Positions 8,881-20,205 of a DNA stretch of 64,000 bases are shown piece after piece. A model generated the notes under the pieces. It ran no database searches, had not been told where the DNA came from, and worked only from the letters and a program-made list of their open reading frames with translations. The position numbers and the translations under genes are program-made. The stretch's first letter is position 1; each line of letters begins with the position of its first letter. The stretch is taken from NCBI RefSeq assembly GCF_030540765.1, contig NZ_JAUOEL010000001.1:1-64000 (forward strand). The letters are read 5' to 3'. This stretch comes from Flavivirga jejuensis. Lineage in GTDB: Bacteria > Bacteroidota > Bacteroidia > Flavobacteriales > Flavobacteriaceae.

Positions 8881-9315
8881 ATGCAAATAAAAATAATAAA
8901 TAAATCCAACCATACTTTACCACATTACGAAACCATAGCGTCTGCTGGTATGGATTTAAGAGCAAATATATTAGAACCAATAACATTAAAACCTTTAGAG
9001 CGTATTATCGTAAAAACAGGTTTGTTTATTGAACTACCCATAGGGTTTGAAGCACAAGTACGCCCACGTAGCGGACTCGCAGCAAAAAAAGGAATTACCG
9101 TTTTAAATGCACCAGGAACTGTAGATGCCGATTATAGAGGTGAAATAGGTGTGATTTTAGTAAATCTTTCAAATGAAGAATTTACTATCGAAAATGGCGA
9201 ACGCGTAGCGCAATTAGTGATTGCAAAACACGAACGCGCAGAATGGATTACTGTAGAAGAACTATCTGAAACGTCGAGAGGTGAAGGAGGATTTGGTAGT
9301 ACGGGAGTGAAATAA
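8881..9315 (+). CDS. dut: dUTP diphosphatase (dUTPase)
   Basis: A 144-residue homotrimeric-type dUTPase, which hydrolyses dUTP to dUMP and pyrophosphate, lowers uracil incorporation into DNA and feeds dTMP synthesis. All five family motifs are visible: AGMDLRA near residue 22, PRSGLA near 61, [13 protein letters not shown] near 80, ERVAQLVI near 108, and [10 protein letters not shown] at the C-terminus. Length is normal for the family. It starts one base after the stop of the flippase relic, consistent with former translational coupling. A GIY-YIG element follows directly. Confidence 0.97.
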
Positions 9316-9700
9316 ATTCATGCGTAGGTAGGAATCTCATGATAAAGAAGTATGAAACTAATGGTATGTCTATATCATGACAAACAAACCTAATGGAGTA
9401 TTATATATTTATATTGGAGTAACAGATAATATAGAAGAAAGAATAAAAGAGCATAAGTTAAAAATATATCCTAAATCATTTATAGCAAGATACAATTGCG
9501 ATAAATTGATTTATTCTGAAGAATTTGAAAAAGGAAGTGAGGCAGAAAAAAGAGAAAGGCAATTCAAAAAATGGAAAAGGAAGTGGAAAATAAATCTGAT
9601 AGAAGAAATGAACCCAAGTTGGTCTGATCTTAGTATCAACTGGAATTTAAATTTTAATAAATTAAGATAAGAACAATGAGATTCCTATTTTCACAGGAAT
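9316..9700. mobile_element. Putative GIY-YIG-carrying element with palindromic inverted ends
   Basis: The left end ATTCATGCGTAGG plus TAGGAATCTCAT (9316-9340) and the reverse complement of the right end, ATTCCTGTGAAAA plus TAGGAATCTCAT (9676-9700), form about 25-base imperfect terminal inverted repeats. Each end is itself a partial ATTCCTGC...GCAGGAAT palindrome. The only gene inside is a GIY-YIG domain protein. A broken relative at 10762-11004 has similar palindromes at both sides. No transposase or target duplication is seen, so the mobile nature is an inference. Confidence 0.5.
9377..9670 (+). CDS. GIY-YIG nuclease family protein, N-terminus probably frameshifted
   Basis: A 97-residue single-domain GIY-YIG protein of the small stand-alone type. 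The YIG half lies in 'VLYIYIGVTDNIEERIKEHK', and the conserved C-terminal part has 'RERQFKKWKRKWKINLIEEM'. The usual N-terminal strand (YVYIMTN) is encoded just upstream of the ATG, but an in-frame TAA at 9359-9361 cuts it off; the ATG at 9354 is in another frame. The extra 'YI' in 'LYIYIG' looks like a 6-base duplication. The copy may therefore be inactive. GIY-YIG domains cut DNA; no specific role is known for this type. It sits inside the inverted-repeat element. Confidence 0.75.
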   Translation: MTNKPNGVLYIYIGVTDNIEERIKEHKLKIYPKSFIARYNCDKLIYSEEFEKGSEAEKRERQFKKWKRKWKINLIEEMNPSWSDLSINWNLNFNKLR

Positions 9701-9718
9701 AAAGTATAACCAAAAAAG

Positions 9719-9738
9719 ATACCTGCTTACGCAGGCAT
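9719..9738. repeat. REP-like palindrome ATACCTGC-TTAC-GCAGGCAT
   Basis: An inverted repeat of ACCTGC/GCAGG type lies just before the nucleotidyltransferase start. It belongs to the same palindrome family as the ends of the GIY-YIG element. Confidence 0.5.
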
Positions 9739-9742
9739 GCAT

Positions 9743-10762
9743 ATGAAAATAATAGTACCAATGGCAGGACGAGGTTCTCGTTTACGACCACACAGTTTAA
9801 CCGTACCAAAACCATTAATTCCAGTAGCAGGACAACCGATTGTTCATAGATTAGTAAAAGATATTGCTAAAGTTTTAAAGCAACCTATCGAAGAAATAGC
9901 TTTTGTTTTAGGCGATCCAGCTTGGTTTGGTGACGAAGTGGTTTCAAGTCTGGAGGATCTAGCTAAAAACTTAGGCGCAAAAGCTTCTATTTACCGTCAA
10001 GATAAACCATTAGGAACTGGTCACGCCATTATGTGTGCAAAACCATCATTGTCTGGACCAGCAGTTATTGCATATGCAGATACATTGATTAGAGCTGAAT
10101 TTGATTTAGACCCAACTGCAGACAGTGTTATTTGGACAAAACAAGTAGAAAACCCCGAAGCCTATGGTGTTGTTAAATTAAATGAAAGCAACGAGATTAT
10201 AGAGTTGGTTGAAAAACCAGAAACCTTTGTGAGCGATCAAGCCGTTATAGGCATTTACTATTTTAAAGATGTAGCTGTTTTAAAAGGAAAATTACAAGAA
10301 ATACTGGATGAAAACATTATGAATGGTGGAGAATACCAGATCAATGATGGTATTAAACGAATGATGGCCGAAGGCAACGTTTTTAAAACAGGAACCGTTG
10401 ATGAATGGATGGATTGTGGCAATAAAGCCATAACAATAGAGACTAACGAAAGAATGTTAGGCTTTTTAAAAGCAGATGGGGATGAGCAATTAGTATCGTC
10501 TTCAGCAAAATTGGATAATGCAACCATTATAGAACCCTGTTTTATTGGTGAAAATGTTATTCTTAAAGACAGTACCATTGGACCTTATGTATCTATAGGG
10601 AATAATAGTGTTATTGAAAATTCGAGTGTTAAGAATAGCTTAATTCAAACAAATACTACAATTAAAAATGCTAATTTAGATGATGCTATGATTGGTAACC
10701 ATGTTAAATATGATGGGAATTATACCTCTATAAGTATTGGTGATTATTCAGTATTAGAGTAA
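9743..10762 (+). CDS. Sugar-phosphate nucleotidyltransferase
   Basis: A 339-residue NDP-sugar pyrophosphorylase, which joins a nucleotide to a sugar 1-phosphate for cell-surface glycan synthesis. The N-terminal domain carries the nucleotide-binding signature 'MAGRGSRLRPHSLTVPKPLI' at about residues 7-26 and 'EKPETF' in the middle; 'ADTLI' near 110 is a likely metal/substrate site. The C-terminal 80 residues contain hexapeptide-like repeats (left-handed beta-helix). I chose ATG 9743 (MKIIVPMAG) over 9737, which lies in the REP palindrome. The sugar cannot be read from sequence; a thymidylyl- or guanylyltransferase are the likely options. It is flanked by GIY-YIG copies on both sides. Confidence 0.88.
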   Translation: MKIIVPMAGRGSRLRPHSLTVPKPLIPVAGQPIVHRLVKDIAKVLKQPIEEIAFVLGDPAWFGDEVVSSLEDLAKNLGAKASIYRQDKPLGTGHAIMCAKPSLSGPAVIAYADTLIRAEFDLDPTADSVIWTKQVENPEAYGVVKLNESNEIIELVEKPETFVSDQAVIGIYYFKDVAVLKGKLQEILDENIMNGGEYQINDGIKRMMAEGNVFKTGTVDEWMDCGNKAITIETNERMLGFLKADGDEQLVSSSAKLDNATIIEPCFIGENVILKDSTIGPYVSIGNNSVIENSSVKNSLIQTNTTIKNANLDDAMIGNHVKYDGNYTSISIGDYSVLE

Positions 10763-10804
10763 TTCCTGCGACATGTGCTGGACTTGTTTCGGTAAAGCAG
10801 GAAT
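10762..10804. repeat. REP-like inverted pair ATTCCTGC ... GCAGGAAT
   Basis: ATTCCTGC (10762-10769) and GCAGGAAT (10797-10804) are exact inverse copies 27 bases apart. The right arm continues into GGAATCTCAT, as at the left end of the GIY-YIG element at 9316. Confidence 0.6.
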
Positions 10805-10820
10805 CTCATAATAAAAATAC

Positions 10821-10988
10821 ATGAATATTGGTATGTTCATACTCATTACAAATAGACCTAAAGGAGTAATTTATATTGGAGTAACAGATAGATAATATAA
10901 AAGAAAGCGTAAAAAGATATAAATCGAAGCAATGAACCCAAATTGAACTGATTTAAGTTTAAATTGGAATCTAAACAATAAATTTAAG
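10821..10988 (+). pseudogene. Broken second GIY-YIG copy
   Basis: From ATG 10821 the frame encodes an intact-looking family N-terminus ending 'GVIYIGVTDR' and then a stop. Compared with the copy at 9377, a 4-base GATA duplication after GTAACAGATA shifts the frame. The middle of the gene is missing, and the tail 'EAMNPN*TDLSLNWNLNN' matches 'EEMNPSWSDLSINWNLNF' of the other copy with a stop. It is preceded by the same palindrome type and followed by one near 10988-11004. Confidence 0.7.
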
Positions 10989-11007
10989 ATACTTACACAG
11001 GTATTAT

Positions 11008-19077: not shown

Positions 19078-20181
19078 ATGACCGAAACGGATTTGCTTTA
19101 TGCTTTGGCTTTACAGCACGTATCAAATATTGGTGATATAACAGCTAAACGCCTTATTTCACATTGTGGTACTGCCGAGGCTGTTTTAAAAGAAAAGAAG
19201 CAAAATTTGCTTAAAATTAGTGGTGTTGGGAGTGCTATTTTAGGCGATTTATTTGAAACAGATCATTTAAAGGCTGCTGAAAAAGAAATTGATTTTATAA
19301 AATCGAATACTATTAAAGTGTCTTACTTTAAGGACGATGGTTATCCCGAAAAACTAAAACATTGTATTGATGGTCCTATTTTATTATTTCAATCGGGGGC
19401 TATTAATTTAAAAGAACAACATATTATTAGTATAGTTGGTGCTCGGAAAATAACAACGCATGGTATCGCGTTTTGTGAAGCATTGGTGGAAACCTTAGCA
19501 CCCTATAACCCTATTGTTGTTTCTGGTTTTGCATATGGAACCGACATTACTGCACACAAAGCAGCTATTAAAAACAAGTTACAAACAGTTGGTTGTTTAG
19601 CACACGGATTGAATCAAATTTACCCTAAAGTACATAAAAAGTATATGGTTGATGTGGAGAAAAACGGCGGCTTTTTTACCGATTTTTGGAGCAGTGATAA
19701 GTTTGATAGAAATAATTTTTTAAAACGAAATAGAATTATTGCGGGATTAAGCGAAGCGACCATTGTTATAGAATCTGCAGAAAAAGGAGGAAGTTTAGTT
19801 ACTGCCGATATTGCAAATTCTTATAATAGAGATGTGTTTGCTGTTCCTGGAAGAACAACAGATAGCCAGAGTATTGGGTGTAATAATTTAATAAAATATC
19901 AAAAAGCACATATGCTAACCACGCCTTTAGATGTTCCTTATATTTTAAACTGGGAATTGGAAAAAGATAAAAAACCAGCAATACAAAAACAGTTGTTTGT
20001 TGAATTGAATCCTACAGAAAAAACAATTTATTCGTATCTAAAAGAAAACGAAAAACAACAACTAGACGTGATTGCTATTAATTGCAACATGCCTATTTTT
20101 AAAATAGCAAGTGTATTACTTACTATGGAACTTAAAGGAGTGATTAGACCTTTGCCTGGGAAGTTGTTTGAGATTATTTAA
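19078..20181 (+). CDS. dprA: DNA-processing protein DprA
   Basis: A 367-residue DprA/Smf protein, which loads RecA onto incoming single-stranded DNA during natural transformation. The N-terminal helix-hairpin-helix-like part holds 'LLKISGVGSAIL'. The Rossmann core has 'SIVGARKITTHG' and 'VVSGFAYGTDITAHKAAIKN', the family signature, followed by 'FLKRNRIIAGLSEATIVIES' and 'GSLVTADIANSYNRDVFAVPG'. The last 65 residues form the winged-helix domain. Length is normal. It is followed by a perfect ATTCCTGC palindrome that can serve as terminator. Confidence 0.96.
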   Translation: MTETDLLYALALQHVSNIGDITAKRLISHCGTAEAVLKEKKQNLLKISGVGSAILGDLFETDHLKAAEKEIDFIKSNTIKVSYFKDDGYPEKLKHCIDGPILLFQSGAINLKEQHIISIVGARKITTHGIAFCEALVETLAPYNPIVVSGFAYGTDITAHKAAIKNKLQTVGCLAHGLNQIYPKVHKKYMVDVEKNGGFFTDFWSSDKFDRNNFLKRNRIIAGLSEATIVIESAEKGGSLVTADIANSYNRDVFAVPGRTTDSQSIGCNNLIKYQKAHMLTTPLDVPYILNWELEKDKKPAIQKQLFVELNPTEKTIYSYLKENEKQQLDVIAINCNMPIFKIASVLLTMELKGVIRPLPGKLFEII

Positions 20182-20205
20182 TTCCTGCCTTTGCAGGAAT
20201 TAAAT
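20176..20205. terminator. REP-like perfect hairpin after dprA
   Basis: ATTTAATTCCTGC (20176-20188) and GCAGGAATTAAAT (20193-20205) form a perfect 13-bp stem with a 4-base loop. The core is the same ATTCCTGC...GCAGGAAT palindrome seen at the GIY-YIG element. There is no T run, so a terminator role is uncertain. Confidence 0.6.

Follow-up and report, generated by a model that had tools for sequence, protein, structure and literature searches.

In a stretch of 64,000 nucleotides of Flavivirga jejuensis DNA (contig NZ_JAUOEL010000001.1; the whole stretch is referred to as the window), a small GIY-YIG nuclease gene is enclosed by inverted palindromes. The element is probably a degenerate copy of a mobile unit that is widespread and has the order palindrome, GIY-YIG nuclease gene, inverted palindrome, whose nuclease would nick its own hairpin, the hairpin then being copied by repair. 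The parts of the element and its kin in the window are listed below, where the names dut-like and nucleotidyltransferase-like are what we take these two genes to be.

8881..9315, + strand: dut-like gene, left neighbour, with stop codon at 9313-9315
9316..9340, + strand: left REP hairpin (9316-9335) with damaged stem, and tail CTCAT, directly 3' of the dut stop codon
9352..9670, + strand: GIY-YIG nuclease gene, decayed, with a frameshift near the start and a short insertion; the ORF runs from the internal ATG at 9377 to 9670
9676..9700, - strand: inner right REP hairpin (9681-9700), an additional palindrome that lies next to the unit
9718..9738, - strand: outer right REP hairpin GATACCTGC..GCAGGCAT, matching in type the right ends of related elements
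9743..10762, + strand: nucleotidyltransferase-like gene, right neighbour (start at 9737 in the ORF list)
10762..10809, + strand: second copy, left REP and tail, the loop widened to 27 bases
10822..10980, + strand: second copy, broken remnant of the GIY-YIG gene
10988..11004, - strand: second copy, right REP remnant GATACTTACACAGGTAT
20181..20200, no strand assigned: bare REP palindrome ATTCCTGC-CTTT-GCAGGAAT

The inverted arms at 9316-9340 and 9676-9700 are 25 nt long and 80% complementary, and both contain the 12-mer TAGGAATCTCAT (at 9329-9340 and, reversed, at 9676-9687). The ORF at 9377-9670 matched PF01541 (GIY-YIG) with an E-value of 7.9e-15. The first-pass annotation, which had described a small GIY-YIG gene within imperfect inverted repeats of about 25 bases sharing a 12-mer, and a second, broken copy at 10762-11004, was thereby confirmed on both points; the outer palindrome at 9718-9738 is an addition to its description. 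Comparison with the sister copies in genome G005 and in Flavivirga sp. 57AJ16 revealed that the window copy is decayed: it is frameshifted right after the first ATG (9352), carries a short insertion that keeps the frame, and has base substitutions in the stem of the left hairpin. The sequence for the first catalytic strand is found 5' of the internal ATG (9377), behind a TAA in frame. An element identical to that of Flavivirga sp. 57AJ16 occurs in the same-genus genome G009.

In the cycle that we propose, the nuclease would be made from read-through transcripts of the genes around the insertion and would recognise its own hairpin in single-stranded DNA, be it the lagging-strand template or incoming DNA. 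It would nick near the tag, and repair or gene conversion may then copy the palindrome, the palindrome pair or the whole unit to new intergenic places, new copies often coming to lie directly 3' of a stop codon. GIY-YIG enzymes are hydrolytic and we know of no strand joining by them, so that spreading would need host repair.

Bare palindromes of the family elsewhere in the window, also claimed at first pass, are exemplified by the one at 20181-20200 and are reflected in motif counts above shuffled expectation. AGGAATCTCAT, allowing at most one mismatch, occurs seven times in the window (three exact) against 1.48 expected, a count reached by no shuffle, and ATTCCTGC occurs six times against 1.79 expected, a count reached by one of 100 shuffles. 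In the whole F. jejuensis genome, the pattern TTCCTGC-N{2,12}-GCAGGAA was found at 24 sites and its reversed control at none; the loop was exactly four bases long at all 24 sites, though the pattern permitted 2-12. Among 15 sites read with their flanks, a GTCA tag was present at nine, in the form GTCATTCCTGC..GCAGGAATC, and absent from six bare copies. Four of the 15 have common flanks and thus lie within copies of one longer dispersed repeat, so that the 24 sites are not all independent and REP counts are partly inflated. Three pairs of sites, spaced by 49-54 nt, have loops that read in opposite directions, and the only pair covered along its whole length is inverted with its tags facing away from each other, which is the layout of the gene-bearing element minus the gene. 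No intact close GIY-YIG enzyme was found beside the 24 REPs of this genome; because the sites persist without one, the F. jejuensis genome may be late in the gene/REP cycle.

As a side observation, six of seven long-loop REPs of this genome carry a piece of 27-31 bases in place of the four-base loop (window 10763-10803; G000 contigs C3 at 48220, C30 at 16273, C31 at 124982, C32 at 188201 and C33 at 49730). The inserts resemble other repeat families, i.e., repeats nested inside hairpin loops.

The pairing of gene and palindromes recurs in other genomes. GIY-YIG matches were present in 38 of 60 relatives, and the 120 matching ORFs were reduced to 89 rows by requiring a matched domain of at least 55 residues, a protein of at most 200 residues and flanks of sufficient length, and by dropping duplicates; the 89 rows are 88 distinct loci (L001 is L008), several of them mutual orthologues. 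At first pass, homologues regularly lacking the palindromes had been named as the finding that would speak against the idea; instead, upstream and downstream flanks matched each other, inverted or direct, in 64 of the 89 loci, with the cut-off set at the 95% point of 89 control genes from the same fetched loci. For the best 80 of 484 relatives found in named genomes, some of which duplicate unnamed loci (L203 and L034 being identical), the flanks matched in inverted orientation in 56 and in either orientation in 61, compared with 0/74 and 1/74 for distal flank pairs as control. Loci from a plasmid collection had matched flanks in 14/16 cases versus 0/16 controls, none of which exceeded a score of 11.0. 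These loci represent alpha-, beta- and gammaproteobacteria, a cyanobacterium and Spirosoma, mostly Proteobacteria; 16 of 33 records were taken with diversity in mind, although Shinella is represented three times and Sinorhizobium twice. An additional set of 28 rows from 30 loci, which includes the window itself and four loci of the 89, yielded matched flanks in 20/28 at a cut-off of 14, without a control. By the cut-offs chosen, matched flanks were absent in 19 of the best 80 of 484, in 25/89 and in 2/16 loci.

Under a strict definition of the unit, which demands in each flank an outward-pointing tag [CT]GTC and a hairpin immediately behind it, 28 of the best 80 of 484 and 10/16 plasmid-collection loci qualified, while single-flank matches in the distal controls numbered 2, 0, 0 and 0 for the former set and 0, 0, 1 and 1 for the latter; 13/89 qualified in the set of relatives, for which flanks were 260 nt long and no control was available. 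The stems differ between GIY-YIG clades (ATTCCTGC, ATTCTGCG, ATCCTGAA, AAGCCGTC, ATTTCCGC and others), and in three loci (L264, L278 and L282) two different stems stand under one tag in one element, each still a hairpin. In the window's own clade, the element ends are mostly without the GTC tag. Two loci from two genera with a similar gene neighbourhood (L090 and L096) likewise have different stems, each still self-complementary.

The ends of the unit were delimited by pairwise comparison of 12 elements from a single lineage and its relatives, with unit lengths of 363-444 bp. Homology extended more than 30 nt beyond the left tag in only 8/66 pairs and beyond the right tag in 6/66, among them tandem copies from a single genome and elements at a common site. 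It stopped no more than 10 nt from the left tag in 22/66 pairs and from the right tag in 13/66, and in many of the 66 pairs it stopped within the unit, short of the tag. Units or remnants in tandem were seen at L043, L044/L093, L088 and L141, G009 having as many as three in succession.

Insertion sites change between lineages. Among the 35 named loci listed for the window's clade, nine junctions are occupied, with gene names that we assigned presumptively: dut/nucleotidyltransferase (15 loci), nucleotidyltransferase/TPR (1 locus), paaA/paaC-like (5 loci), paaJ/paaZ-like (4 loci), before paaJ (1 locus), paaG/paaY-like (5 loci), E1/E2 dehydrogenase (2 loci), parE/parC-like (1 locus) and fabG/ketosynthase (1 locus). 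The neighbours, as picked by script for these 35 loci, lie on the strand of the gene on the left in 35/35 cases and on the right in 34/35, so that the surroundings of the insertions are probably operons. The elements at the dut site do not form one clade on the gene tree: seven changes are seen there, at least three of them forced by well supported branches, and an AU test against a single dut-site clade gave a modest p of 0.034 for a group chosen after the first tree had been seen. Over the whole tree, at least 14 site changes are needed versus a shuffled mean of 21.0. This pattern implies partial inheritance of sites, combined with re-occupation or exchange.

REPs often lie directly 3' of stop codons, between genes of the same direction. 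At L036, a paaJ-like gene ends with AGA ATT CCT GCG TAG within the REP, so that the palindrome supplies its last codons. The left neighbours at L211 and L230 have protein C-terminal tails FLRKQESR, which are translated REP. At L226, some 48 bases that open the downstream dehydrogenase E2-like gene are present on both sides of the element (about 2416-2463 and right of the GIY-YIG gene), possibly a trace of the insertion event.

Orthologous places were compared between species with regard to empty sites, the lack of which in relatives had been named at first pass as counter-evidence; empty or differently filled places do exist. At the dut/nucleotidyltransferase place, G016 has four bases between the genes, and G000, G005, G008, G009 and G017 have an element or its remains. 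The place of L091, available from 7 of 12 genomes, holds a full unit in G009, just one palindrome, REP-like and of the same kind, in G006, a different palindrome in G000, G001, G005 and G008, and a gene-like insert in G007. At the place of L084 (10 loci), the unit is present in G005, a bare REP in G008, a REP with a degraded gene in G011, and other or partial palindromes in G004, G001 and G003; no such REP occurred within the stretch read in G002, G007 and G009. In these between-species comparisons, no target duplication was definable.

The relation between enzyme and palindrome number was surveyed in 199 Flavobacteriaceae genomes from 198 genera. With kinship ignored, the number of ATTCCTGC-type REPs, counted inclusive of those inside longer repeats, rose with similarity to the matching GIY-YIG gene (Spearman 0.60). 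Of 75 genomes without a class-1 GIY-YIG match, 15 were REP-positive (median 0), compared with 21/21 of the genomes with the closest GIY-YIG relatives (median 14). The reversed REP pattern occurred in none of the 199 genomes. TGCTGAA-N4-TTCAGCA, tried as a second REP class, was rejected with only 0-2 occurrences per genome and serves as a like-shaped negative control. Y1 transposases (PF01797) were found in 63/199 genomes, and REP number was unrelated to their presence (p 0.54). There was no Y1 match at E 1e-5 in 15 of the 21 genomes with close GIY-YIG relatives, and the relation between GIY-YIG and REPs persisted at Spearman 0.57 in genomes with Y1 and 0.65 in the 136 genomes without a Y1 match. 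One genome of 3.0 Mb, G207, has 15 GIY-YIG matches, several of them on contig C31, yet no ATTCCTGC-type REP. The first-pass suggestion that GIY-YIG proteins spread the flavobacterial palindromes fits the cross-genome relation and the missing link to Y1; its restriction to flavobacteria does not hold, as the pairing also occurs at the plasmid-collection loci, mostly in Proteobacteria.

For the protein, an AlphaFold2 model of L203 from Flavivirga sp. 57AJ16 (21 rows) shows a GIY-YIG fold with a pLDDT of 94.7 and a pTM of 0.85. Its best fold matches were UPF0213 1zg2 (E 4.4e-3, weak) and Slx1; no PDB fold matched the L203 model at E 0.001 or better. Residues Y7, Y18, G20, R28 and E66 are invariant in 25 sequences and, going by the roles we presume for them, appear to fit a GIY-YIG active site. 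By sequence, the nearest solved relatives are the UPF0213/YhbQ proteins 1zg2 and 1ywl (E 4.1e-6 and 2.8e-5), which makes this group nearest both in sequence and in fold. The yhbQ gene of E. coli, presumably the studied relative in the same subfamily, lies 50 nt from yhbP and overlaps yhbS, a packing so tight that there is no room for REPs on both sides. A comparison of one GIY-YIG protein with phage records gave no match, IMG/VR contained nine loci with a best-segment identity of 41-49%, and PADLOC returned only weak matches for two proteins.

Both halves of the arrangement have been known separately. In REP/RAYT (TnpA_REP) systems and REPINs, a Y1 HUH transposase gene lies between inverted palindromes with a GTAG tag. 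The likeness to REP/RAYT proposed at first pass is borne out by the unit ends, the clade-specific palindromes and the gene-less inverted palindrome pairs: in both systems the gene sits between inverted palindromes, the palindromes are dispersed singly and in pairs, and the pairing is clade-specific. Unlike RAYT, the enzyme here is a PF01541 GIY-YIG protein instead of a Y1 HUH transposase, and the tag in the flanks read is [CT]GTC or absent, not GTAG. In the Ssn/NTS system of Neisseria, a small GIY-YIG protein is paired with genome-wide repeats; Ssn cuts single-stranded DNA site-specifically at NTS repeats and affects transformation. A small GIY-YIG protein, conserved catalytic residues (the window copy being decayed) and genome-wide repeats are shared with Ssn, which, however, is described by cutting and transformation and not as a mobile palindrome-gene-palindrome unit. 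The nuclease is probably of the Ssn type. A Neisseria record contains a 46% identical homologue with matching flanks among repeats of dRS3 look. Free-standing GIY-YIG homing endonucleases are copied by break repair, which may be common to both; the ends here are genome-wide palindromes and not a single homing site. What is new, as far as the literature was searched, is the union of the GIY-YIG/repeat pairing with the REP/RAYT layout and the link to the enzyme-less CGTC class. The search found no paper joining GIY-YIG genes with CGTC or flavobacterial REPs; it did not cover the Ssn work, so the link may be published.

The palindromes probably belong to the CGTC-tagged REP class or, in the window's clade, derive from it. 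According to the accessible part of Di Nocera et al. 2013 (PMC3733652), this class is one of two tagged REP superfamilies: its tag is CGTC, replaced by TGTC or CCTC in many copies, its stems measure 8 or 9 bp and begin with A-T pairs, its loops have 4 or 5 bases and its tails are mostly CCA; paired elements occur, and the repeats are mostly intergenic and downstream of genes. The same text reports the class from five phyla, including Bacteroidetes and Proteobacteria, counts dRS3 of Neisseria among its members, for which PMC3898611 gives the pattern ATTCCC(N8)GGGAAT, and states that no dedicated transposase was known in 2013. The palindromes studied here fit this description: both flanks bear an outward tag in 28 of the best 80 of 484, 10/16 and 13/89 loci, nine of 15 bare own-genome copies are tagged, the own-genome loop is 4 (24/24), and the tails are CCA, CT or CTCAT. 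They differ in that the ends in the window's own clade are mostly without the tag, and in that the REPs of the published class, in the text available, are without a dedicated enzyme, whereas these flank GIY-YIG genes. GIY-YIG genes whose flanks match were also found in three CGTC carriers named in that text, Azospirillum lipoferum, Sinorhizobium meliloti and Novosphingobium aromaticivorans. The S. meliloti palindromes bear the tag as CCTC, with the left one facing inward. In the main text of PMC12306157, neither the word RAYT nor the word nuclease appears.

We give even chances to the broader proposition that the whole CGTC-tagged class, across phyla, has its missing dedicated enzyme in small GIY-YIG nucleases. 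These nucleases would then form a second, independently evolved palindrome-spreading system parallel to RAYT/GTAG, working via hairpin nicking and host repair and not via transposase-catalysed strand transfer. If this is true, the origin of CGTC repeats, including dRS3 in Neisseria, becomes testable, and two unrelated nuclease folds would have converged on the same gene-plus-palindrome lifestyle. The match between enzyme clade and hairpin sequence points to many candidate hairpin-specific nucleases.

Three other explanations were weighed against the mobile unit. An Ssn-type single-strand nuclease might cut at the repeats, e.g., in transformation or repair, the repeats being targets that spread by other means and the gene having to sit at its own site or being regulated there. 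This is possible, though clearly less probable than the mobile unit: domain, size and repeat pairing are those of Ssn/NTS, and the Neisseria homologue lies among repeats of dRS3 look, but the units occupy different sites with homology seldom beyond the tags, and palindrome numbers track the matching enzyme clade, which looks like spreading and not only like targeting. The two readings are compatible.

That the gene is a homing passenger in palindromes made or spread by RAYT/IS200 enzymes or by replication slippage is unlikely. The Y1 transposases in 63/199 genomes, the single REP-like palindrome of G006 where G009 has the full unit, and the different palindromes at orthologous places would suit a passenger; against it, REP counts do not differ with Y1 presence (p 0.54), and the relation to GIY-YIG persists in the 136 genomes free of Y1 matches. 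In the accessible part of PMC3733652, moreover, no tyrosine transposase gene was flanked by CGTC repeats in the CGTC-positive species checked. Ordinary terminators or mRNA hairpins flanking a small gene by chance would agree with palindromes right after stop codons between same-direction genes, but the distal controls (1/74 only), the absence of the reversed pattern from 199 genomes, the like-shaped control hairpin with at most two copies per genome and the common sequence on both sides of the gene make this reading very improbable; it is disfavoured by the controls run.

Other GIY-YIG clades show different surroundings. Eight loci (L003, L129, L140, L111, L119, L122, L123 and L049) are flanked by long direct repeats with best-match scores of 80-119, built of other palindromes such as TTCTCGAT..CGAGAAG or GTCATTTCGACG..AGAAATCACAT. 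A further clade adjoins what we take to be tRNA genes, with tRNA-Leu-like ends at L002, L131, L132, L134 and L128 and a tRNA 3' end at L061. At L002 and L061, the tRNA 3' end recurs on the far side of the gene, and homing into tRNA genes is perhaps a separate insertion habit of this clade.
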